In this document: piece after piece, positions 16,789 through 55,000 of the stretch | Position numbering within the stretch: the stretch's first letter is position 1 | Layout of the letters: each line of letters starts with the position of its first letter | From: Pseudomonas brassicacearum | Lineage (GTDB): Bacteria; Pseudomonadota; Gammaproteobacteria; Pseudomonadales; Pseudomonadaceae | Direction of reading: 5' to 3' | DNA length: 64,000 bases | Assembly (NCBI RefSeq): GCF_000585995.1 | Contig: NZ_CP007410.1 | Location: 1 to 64,000, forward strand | Notes under the pieces: generated by a model | Told to the model about the DNA's origin: nothing | The model's database searches: none | What the model saw: only the letters and a program-made list of their open reading frames with translations | Position numbers and translations under genes: made by a program

Positions 16789-16804
16789 AGGCAGGGTTCT
16801 AATC

Positions 16805-19491: not shown

Positions 19492-19623
19492 GAATCATTC
19501 CTACAGACAACCCGCACGAGCCACTAGCCCACCAAGCAAAATCACCCCCTTTAACCCCGAATCCCAAGGCAATCCAAAACCCTGTTTATTCCCCCACCGC
19601 CACCCTGCCACCAACCCACACAT

Positions 19624-19888
19624 CCTTGCGCCATTGCCTACAACTACGCCAGAATCCGCCCGCTTGTGCGCCTTGCTCCCGGGTTCTATCGTTTCCCTGC
19701 CACTGCCCATCAGTGGTCGGGTTTAGTAGCCCGTGGTAGTCGAAGCTGTACAAGTGCTTCTGTCAGACAGGATCTCTATTCCGGCCTTTGATGGTGGCTG
19801 TACGCAGGGCGCTTTGGCGCGCCGGCTTCTTCGGTTCCCCGGTCTACTAACCTGCGTACAGCTGCCACCCCCTGTTTAGTAGCTAGGG
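19624..19888 (+). ncRNA. Structured leader of DUF6124 gene, copy A
   Basis: A 110-base block (19624-19733) is nearly identical to 25599-25708, followed by a less conserved but structurally matching part up to the gene. Visible stems are CCACTG/CAGTGG (19700-19716), CGGG/CCCG around TTTAGTAG (19718-19733), GGTGGCTGTACGCAGG (19793-19808) pairing with 19851-19869, GCGC-TTTG-GCGC (19809-19820) and CCGG/CCGG (19822-19842). CTACTAA (19844-19850) can pair with TTAGTAG at 19723-19729 or at 19876-19882, giving two mutually exclusive folds. It is interpreted as a cis-acting RNA. Function unknown. Confidence 0.6.
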
Positions 19889-20269
19889 GTGTCGGCATCA
19901 CATCAGGAACCGAAGCTCCTGTTCAAAGTAACTCCAAATCCTCCGGAAACGGACCGCACTTCCCCGCGCACCAAATCCAAAAAACTCGACGAAGCCGCCG
20001 AGCGCGCTCTGGATTTCTATCTGTCGCCCAAGACAAAATCTAAAGACGCAACCAAACCCGGCCAGCTATTCACCGTAGTAAAAGACATCGACTACGAATC
20101 CCTGCTCGCCAACCTCAGCGAAACCCTGGCCTCAGCCGACGCGATGGTCAATGACCTGGCCTTCGAACTGGAAGGCTCACGCCGCCACGTCGCCCTTGGC
20201 ATCCAGCAATTGATCGAACTGAGTTCATTGCTGGCGAACCGGGCGTTGGATAACGTCGATCCGCGATAG
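19889..20269 (+). CDS. DUF6124 family protein, copy A
   Basis: This small soluble protein has about 70 percent visible identity to the 119-residue copy at 25894. The N-terminal TPNPPETDRTSPRTKSK is charged and disordered. A helical region EAAERALDFYL precedes a C-terminal helical bundle (LLANLSETLASADAMVNDLAFELEG ... LSSLLANRALDNVDPR). At the position of the paralogue's ATG this copy has CTG (19919), with AGGA upstream. It may therefore start at CTG, or at the GTG at 19889 with ten extra residues. Molecular function is unknown. The family occurs in multiple copies in pseudomonads. Confidence 0.8.
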   Translation: MSASHQEPKLLFKVTPNPPETDRTSPRTKSKKLDEAAERALDFYLSPKTKSKDATKPGQLFTVVKDIDYESLLANLSETLASADAMVNDLAFELEGSRRHVALGIQQLIELSSLLANRALDNVDPR

Positions 20270-20290
20270 CGGGTAAAGATCTTTTCAATA

Positions 20291-20323
20291 AAACGAACCC
20301 GACAATTTGCGTCGGGTTCGTTT
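20291..20323 (+). terminator. Terminator after DUF6124 copy A
   Basis: A stem of AAACGAACCCGAC pairs with GTCGGGTTCGTTT around a six-base loop, 22 bases after the stop. The following 20324-20529 contains no further recognisable feature apart from a possible promoter for the SDR gene. Confidence 0.85.
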
Positions 20324-20529
20324 ACTTCCACTCAGGCTGTCCGTCACAACAACACCCACAAAGAGGCGCAAATCCCCAATCGCGTCCATGATTAACCCCC
20401 TGCGATATCGAAAACGCTAGGTGGACGACGATTCGAGACCCTCGAAGATCCATCTCTAACCCCGTTTAACTATCATCCAGCCAAAAATATCGCACAGCCC
20501 CCCAGGTCCATTCATCAAGGAGTCCCTCC

Positions 20530-41709: not shown

Positions 41710-41873
41710 AACTAAACCCGTCAAATGCCACTCAGAGATTTTGAATGGGTGGTGAAGCCCTTCAATGCTCCTATGTTGTGTTAAGTGTTGGCAGATATCT
41801 GGACCCCGCCCTAGCGGTCCGGAACTTGAACCCCGAACTTCCCCCTCCCCATAAGAAGTCCGGGGTTTTTTTT
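41710..41873 (+). ncRNA. ErsA/Spot42-position small RNA (putative)
   Basis: The polA-yihA gap is where E. coli encodes Spot 42 and P. aeruginosa encodes ErsA. Here it ends in a strong terminator (CCCCGAACTT / AAGTCCGGGG then eight T, about 41831-41873) about 320 bases past the polA stop and beyond a REPIN, which is far for polA itself. Internal stems include GGACC/GGTCC (41801-41818). The 5' end near 41710 is an estimate. No convincing promoter was recognised. Identity rests on synteny and the terminator. Confidence 0.65.
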
Positions 41874-41887
41874 GCCTGCGATTTGGC

Positions 41888-54745: not shown

Positions 54746-55000
54746 GCACAGCCCGAGGAGGGCCGATGCATGACCAGGGGGCCGGGACGTTCTGACCGTT
54801 CAGGGTCGGAGTGACCTACGGGCACAAGGGGTGCCTGCGAAAGGGCCGGGTCAGGTAAGAGCTGCGACGCAGGTTCGCGAAGTCGTGAAGGCTTGGCGAA
54901 CTTGCGTAGAGCTTGTGCTTCAAAAGGCTTGTGCCAGAGCGGCCTGTTAATAGGGGCGCCACCAGCAGGTTCACGCTGCGGCATATTGTCTCCCGCGCTC
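54746..55000. other. Structured, GC-rich intergenic segment, possible RNA gene
   Basis: GGGCAC-AAGG-GGTGCC (54818-54835) is a hairpin. GCAGGTTCGC near 54870 can pair with GCGAACTTGC near 54900, ten pairs with one G-U. GCTTGTGCTTC and GGCTTGTGCC form an adjacent repeat. No ribosome site or convincing coding frame is present. The remaining 55001-55412 gap before gltP holds CGGCCGTTT palindromic sequence near 55130 and no gene. Confidence 0.4.

Follow-up and report, generated by a model that had tools for sequence, protein, structure and literature searches.

C4 antisense RNA units with individual addresses precede DUF6124 genes in Pseudomonas brassicacearum and are predicted to silence them

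The leader of the DUF6124 gene that begins at position 19919 of the window (the whole 64,000-nt stretch of Pseudomonas brassicacearum DNA that was analysed) is a C4 antisense RNA (Rfam RF01695) preceded by its upstream target a1b1 (RF03163). As the a' element of this RNA pairs perfectly with a2, a site in the ribosome-binding region, the leader looks like a self-silencing antisense unit placed before DUF6124. Comparison of the sequences within and between genomes leads us to a probability of about 0.86 that such units are self-silencing C4 modules, each with a private a' address, and with DUF6124 as their commonest cargo. Two of them were found in the window, copy A at the above gene and copy B 6 kb away, both on the plus strand.

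Copy A starts with a conserved block (19624–19698, +), identical to copy B at 72 of 75 positions, that includes a candidate sigma-70-like promoter read by eye (TTGTGC at 19664–19669, a spacer of 17 nt and TATCGT at 19687–19692, +). This promoter would put the transcript start at the first a1b1 hairpin; consensus scans of 19560–20400 detected neither a promoter, on both strands, nor a terminator on the plus strand. Similar patterns (TTGTnC-N16-18-TAnnnT) were present upstream of 19/34 units of the same genome (G000) and of 12/35, 18/42, and 0/38 units of three other Pseudomonas genomes (G010, G019, and G009, respectively). A block around CAGAATCCGC, located upstream of the candidate promoter (19624–19663), was detected at 20/34, 18/35, 21/42, and 0/38 units of these genomes and is possibly a shared regulatory site. 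REP-like repeats, recognised by eye (GTGGCGAGGGAGCTTGCTCCCGC, at 16802, 17704, 19314, 19448, 24193, and 25455), lie in some cases close to both C4 units, and matches to repeats of this type recur in this and related genomes.

The a1b1 element of copy A (19686–19737, +) scored 51.2 bits against a gathering threshold of 46.7, and includes b1 (GTTTAGTAG, 19721–19729, +), complementary to b' according to sequence and permutation test; it is followed by a1 (19738–19745, +), an imperfect complement of a' that by eye forms 8 pairs, two of them G-U. The C4 RNA itself (19787–19872, +; 71.0 bits, gathering threshold 45) has covarying stems and carries the a' loop element (CTTCGGTTCC, 19829–19838, +), a perfect 10-nt complement of a2, and the b' element (CTACTAAC, 19844–19851, +), which contains CTACTAA. 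Behind it are the downstream target of b', b2 (GTTTAGTAG, 19874–19882, +), and a2 (GGAACCGAAG, 19906–19915, +) within the ribosome-binding region, and then the DUF6124 gene (19919–20269, +; PF19619, 107.5 bits). The open frame of this gene reaches up to a GTG at 19889, which is probably not the start codon. The start position (19919–19921) is occupied by CTG, so copy A may be poorly translated, and by ATG in relatives that share its a' loop (L259 and L276). Copy B repeats this order, with a1b1 at 25661–25712 (+, 51.1 bits), C4 at 25761–25847 (+; 77.5 bits, gathering threshold 45), its a' pairing stretch at 25804–25813 (+) and b' at 25819–25826 (+), b2 (GTTTAGTAG) at 25849–25857 (+), a2 (GGACTTAGTA) at 25883–25892 (+), adjoining the ATG, and a DUF6124 gene encoding 119 amino acids from that start (25894–26253, +; PF19619, 99.5 bits).

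The initial annotation had described about 265 structured bases with a near-identical upstream part in the copy 6 kb away, and this was borne out in the sequence, as was the presence of CTACTAA at 19844 and of TTAGTAG at 19723 and 19876. The two partners of CTACTAA had been taken for competing folds; they are real, and correspond to the antisense element b' with its targets b1 and b2; a', the other antisense element, had not been named there. Similarly, the long-range helix noted there is the P1 stem of C4, with its 5' arm from about 19793 and its 3' arm to about 19867. The structure of the leader exceeds that of shuffled sequences in copy A (z −3.25, with 1/200 shuffles as good) and in copy B (z −4.46, 0/200). 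Conservation beyond that of the coding sequence holds for the upstream part, since 107/110 positions of 19624–19733 are identical between copies A and B compared to 278/348 (79.9%) in the coding part, and not for the leader as a whole, in which the identity was 75/86 for C4, 28/49 for a1 and the spacer, and 24/46 for the b2–a2 region.

Assignment to the C4 family is supported along the whole unit. An alignment of 30 C4 copies from the same genome gave 26 base pairs, 17 of which show one or more double compensatory changes, and both this covariation and the alignments of the two copies returned the P1, P2, and P3 stems, a' being located in a loop and b' in a single-stranded stretch. An upstream a1b1 was found at both copies, and the genome contains 38 matches to RF03163, 19 of them over the cut-off. 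In addition, GG is present at the known cut site in 148/149 units, and the 3' end CCACC in at least 109/149.

We scored the gapless pairing of each a' loop against the region behind each C4 in the four genomes (34 units in G000; 35 in G010, out of 36, as one partial match of 35.6 bits was left out; 42 in G019; and 38 in G009), with 20,000 permutations and with pair energies that are approximate stacking sums, using a default value for some stacks. The a' and b' elements proved complementary to the ribosome-binding region downstream: the mean pairing of a' with its own a2 was −16.0, −16.7, −15.6, and −15.1 kcal/mol in G000, G010, G019, and G009, and with a2 of other units −11.4, −10.4, −11.1, and −10.6 kcal/mol, respectively. 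The own mean was reached by 0/20,000 permutations in each of the four genomes, and the same was true for b' with b2 and b' with b1. The pairing of a' with a1 was the weakest of the four, with 5/20,000 permutations reaching the mean in G000 and none in the other three. A control with ViennaRNA duplex energies on 33/34 units of G000 gave an own mean of −14.6, the best of 10,000 permutations being −11.9.

These addresses are almost all different. Distinct a' loops numbered 34/34 in G000, 33/35 in G010, 42/42 in G019, and 38/38 in G009, and no other part of C4 varies as much among the 30 aligned copies as the a' loop (mean pairwise identity of 0.34, compared to 0.66–0.94 elsewhere). The b' element varies with its partner too, and the combinations CTACTAAC/GTTTAGTAG, CTGCTAAC/GTTTAGCAG, and CGACTAAC/GTTTAGTCG coexist. 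As a' differs in nearly every unit and usually changes with its target, the units would tend toward self-silencing, a tendency that is an average over predicted pairings. The own target was the single best one by a2 alone for 12/34, 19/35, 18/42, and 14/38 units (G000, G010, G019, and G009), and by a2 and b2 together for 21/34, 26/35, 27/42, and 19/38. Among targets with an own a2+b2 pairing of −22 kcal/mol or stronger, 12/31, 20/34, 16/41, and 18/25 had no rival C4 within 2 kcal/mol, and the own pairing was weaker than −22 kcal/mol in 3/34, 1/35, 1/42, and 13/38 units, the last figure including orphan C4s. Rival C4s come near many targets, a possible reason being that a similar Shine-Dalgarno core is contacted by many a' loops. 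The predicted cross-talk among units is considerable, and specificity is not absolute. Within the window, 26 of 6396 segments of 40 nt, the own site included, pair with a' of copy A no less well than its own target, and for a' of copy B the number is 16. As a' taken by itself has more than one match in the window, the argument for addresses rests on the pattern over the whole set.

Orphan C4 RNAs were found back-to-back at two loci of G009, three at L180 (C21:16214–16512) and two at L181 (C58:321065–321241); their a' loops differ, and neither a clear target nor a small cargo ORF follows immediately. In an uncontrolled comparison of these orphans with all the other units there, some matches in trans equalled that of the target's own C4. 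The b2–a2 pattern of one orphan was searched in viral contigs and nothing was found; the pattern of copy A gave 27 stretches there, no more than a rough chance estimate. Outside the genus, a contiguous a' match of at least 8 nt was present within 100 nt behind C4 at 22/26 loci, also an uncontrolled figure, and the ORFs that follow are various, some antirepressor-like by eye.

Comparison between genomes showed turnover of a' together with its target. At the copy A locus of G010, the flanks are kept (87.5% and 87.8% identity) around a different a' (CAATGCTGGAATCC) with a matching a2 (GGATTCCAGC). The C4 at this locus of G010 is 100% identical to that of L053, a different locus of the P. brassicacearum genome (2.11 Mb), and the coding part is nearer to copy A (84.8%) than to L053 (78.8%), so the leader looks swapped as a module. 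Within the synteny group of copy A, two of eight members carry its loop and six the G010-type loop. From 27 flank-matched pairs, 12 were dropped (identity under 80% over 250 nt), and the remaining 15, two of which involve locus L010 of the P. brassicacearum genome and five of which matched on both sides, had different a' elements; the own pairing was stronger than the crossed one in 13 of them, tied in one, and weaker in one. At flank-matched loci, a change in a' usually goes with one in its target. More than one address was found in 24 of 25 single-linkage synteny groups, a count that we use as support only, as adjacent or repeated loci have probably been joined in the largest groups. Finally, copy B lies in a 3.5-kb segment absent from G010; the unit is present at the same place in G039 and is reduced to a 49-nt remnant in G035.

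The genome of the analysed strain (one contig of 6.65 Mb) contains 34 C4 RNAs, all over the cut-off, and 39 DUF6124 matches, of which 37 exceed the cut-off and 31 are close to full length. A DUF6124 match follows on the same strand within 600 nt in 27 of the 34 C4 RNAs, at 175–208 nt from the C4 end to the domain in 24 of these 27 pairs. The remaining seven C4 RNAs are placed before DUF3077 genes, short ORFs of other kinds, or decayed units. Such an upstream C4 is missing for twelve of the DUF6124 matches, namely, seven fragments and five near-full-length copies, and a sensitive search upstream of these five returned a single weak trace (14.5 bits, at L012). Among 99 sampled Pseudomonas genomes, this one included, C4 was detected in 92 (91 over the cut-off) and DUF6124 in 78 (77 over the cut-off), and none of the 78 had DUF6124 without any C4 match, the match in G037 being weak (E 1.4e-4). 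Counts of both per genome correlate (Spearman 0.89), with the C4 counts being lower bounds, as the best 39 candidates at most were scored per genome (15 at most in the class-wide survey, also a lower bound). There were at least 10 C4 copies in 58/99 genomes, at least 20 in 39/99, and at least 30 in 21/99; the module has been multiplied in Pseudomonas. Among 274 Gammaproteobacteria including this genome, C4 was found in 18, with at least 1–6 copies each outside it, and DUF6124 in this genome only. Matches to copy B in a named genome collection comprised 389 stretches; among the best 79, kept for their similarity to copy B, C4 was directly upstream in 77, with 36 different a' loops. The two exceptions are L285, with only 95 nt of upstream DNA, and L263, with no C4 match there. 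No plasmid copies were found at E ≤ 0.01.

DUF6124 was the commonest cargo in the four Pseudomonas genomes examined. Its genes look functional, as the median dN/dS was 0.17 over 301 pairs, none of them above 1, and an N-terminal MxKxTxNP motif is common to all the 42 aligned proteins, an alignment from which L256 was omitted for a stop in frame. In the predicted model of the protein (mean pLDDT 71.8, pTM 0.47), the front part is of low confidence and the C-terminal part forms a helical hairpin. Foldseek found no match to it with E ≤ 0.001 in PDB and BFVD, and no sequence matches with E ≤ 1 were found in PDB, PHROG, or NCBIfam, nor any PADLOC match on copy B. Nevertheless, DUF6124 is likely a remote relative of DUF3077, as suggested by hhalign (probability 82, with a five-sequence profile). 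The passage on DUF3077 in PMC9630843, the one paper found to name it, reports no more than a mutation and has nothing on C4. Other cargoes elsewhere in Pseudomonas are Bro-N, a family of 52 amino acids, and another of 90, one member of each of the last two giving no Pfam match. C4 was observed before Bro-N-type proteins at L078, L079, L082, and L085 of other Pseudomonas, confirmed by Pfam for L078 and by similarity for the others; this cargo is antirepressor-like and closer to the phage arrangement.

As for its action, a single transcript would contain a1b1, C4, b2 and a2 in the ribosome-binding region, and the small ORF. By analogy with phages P1/P7 and with Acinetobacter baumannii, RNase P would cut C4 out of it, and the released RNA, whose complementarity to a2 and b2 through a' and b' is observed, may then pair with these sites in the mRNA of its own unit. 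Such pairing would hide the ribosome-binding region and keep the DUF6124 protein off. With a' as a private address, the units would tend, on average over predicted pairings, to silence themselves and not each other.

A different reading is that C4 is never released and that competition between a1b1:C4 and C4:a2b2 pairing in one transcript sets the translation of DUF6124, as a leader switch acting in cis. The minimum-energy fold of copy B, in which an arm of C4 is paired with the a1b1 region, speaks for it, together with the b'–b1 complementarity, kept as well as that of b' with b2 in the permutation test; from these two observations, a1b1 may restrain C4 or be a second target. However, the C4 fold is conserved and covarying, and it is retained in the minimum-energy fold of copy A; the cut site and the 3' end are kept in the proportions given above, and the related C4 RNAs of A. 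baumannii were seen processed (PMC5320573). We regard this switch as unlikely; a mixed model in which a1b1 tunes the release of C4 fits equally well. The initial annotation had proposed a switch-like cis-regulatory RNA class tied to the DUF6124 family. The part that stands is a conserved and covarying structured RNA, with alternative pairings and with C4 directly upstream in 77 of the 79 DUF6124 loci kept. A new class it is not, since its scores are above the Rfam cut-offs for C4 and a1b1, and the tie is not exclusive to DUF6124, as C4 is also located in front of DUF3077, of Bro-N, and of further small ORFs. A new ligand-sensing riboswitch would likewise agree with the strong structure, the alternative pairings, and the small gene family that follows, but was dropped as extremely improbable: the match to the known antisense family C4 and to a1b1 is full, these two were the only Rfam families to reach their cut-off in 19600–20000, with no riboswitch family among them, and the large apical loop, a', is hypervariable (identity of 0.34) and varies with the target downstream.

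The units could also be dead prophage remnants, phage C4 immunity regions left behind and multiplied with no present function, as C4 was first described in such regions, some units (L054, L055, and L061) are incomplete or have no target, and copy B is missing from G010 with its segment and decayed in G035. Moreover, DUF6124 was detected on viral contigs, 27 in number, and C4 lies upstream in 20 of these; the single phage record with DUF6124 has C4 as well, so some units may travel with prophages. Purifying selection on the DUF6124 protein, the maintenance of a'/a2 and b'/b2 complementarity with correlated change, and the presence of C4–DUF6124 in most of the sampled Pseudomonas genomes argue against remnants, which makes this origin without function quite improbable. 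Within the preferred reading of self-silencing units, it is conceivable, as a tentative extension that we consider less probable than its contrary, that a phage immunity RNA was turned into a genome-wide, address-coded silencing, in which tens of C4 units per cell would each hold one small protein off, with compensatory changes and swaps of whole leader modules between loci renewing the addresses. A unit brought in by gene transfer would then be silent only in cells already holding the same address, as in P1/P7 heteroimmunity.

The C4 antisense RNA known from phages P1 and P7 was reportedly described by Citron and Schuster in 1990. The phage RNA belongs to the same covariance family as the Pseudomonas units, and the layout of the P1/P7 immI operon is alike, with the upstream target a1b1, C4, the target a2b2 in the ribosome-binding region, and a small ORF. 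In P1, c4, icd, and ant1/2 form one operon in which C4 blocks ant expression (PMC8198154). C4 is released by RNase P, with a' conferring specificity and b' masking the ribosome-binding site (PMC5320573); P1/P7 heteroimmunity acts through C4 (PMC12197685). There, a' is the specific element, as predicted for the Pseudomonas units. A P1-type immI operon, with icd and ant behind C4, was looked for and not encountered, as a single DUF6124 gene follows at copies A and B. The Pseudomonas C4 RNAs thus differ from those of P1/P7 in being chromosomal and present in tens of copies, all with different a' loops in this genome, and in carrying DUF6124 instead of icd/ant as cargo; neither copy A nor copy B is followed by an antirepressor gene.

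In type I toxin-antitoxin systems, an antisense RNA keeps a small protein untranslated, and several similar pairs occur per genome. In contrast to these, C4 is on the strand of its target and apparently in the same transcript. C4 in Pseudomonadales was already predicted by Weinberg et al. in 2010, as told in PMC5320573, and both copies match their c4-a1b1 (RF03163; PMC2864571) above the cut-off, with no difference seen in the RNA itself. In A. baumannii, the Group 1 C4-like sRNAs number 21 in one chromosome, with a variable a', and are apparently processed from longer RNAs (PMC5320573). They resemble the Pseudomonas set as multi-copy chromosomal C4 RNAs with variable a' (PMC5320573), and differ in that their targets were reportedly left open, as other bacterial RNAs or phages, whereas the target predicted in Pseudomonas is the own downstream gene, with its cargo named. 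The RNA family and a multi-copy set in A. baumannii were known already; a link of C4 with DUF6124 or DUF3077, or individual addresses per unit, was not found in the literature searched, in which subscription journals are thinly covered, nor was any paper on the DUF6124 family in that collection.

For DUF6124, these results predict a regulator and an off state, and for chromosomal C4-like RNAs they offer an immediately testable target rule, namely, the ribosome-binding region of the next gene. This rule bears on the C4-like RNAs of A. baumannii, reported without known targets (PMC5320573). In addition, some 30–40 pairs of antisense RNA and target that share one architecture within a single cell would make a natural set for measuring antisense specificity, and the turnover of pairs between species shows addresses evolving.

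Elsewhere in the window, between the two units, an ORF of 226 amino acids on the minus strand (21432–22112) consists mostly of tandem repeats of 13 amino acids (AEGGSDRLIENRV), corresponding to a DNA repeat of 39 nt; its start is signal-peptide-like by eye, and no Pfam match was obtained at E ≤ 1. Finally, two further Rfam matches were detected on the plus strand, the ErsA/Pseudomon-1 sRNA at 41765–41881 (140 bits) and ivy-DE at 54771–54861 (92 bits).
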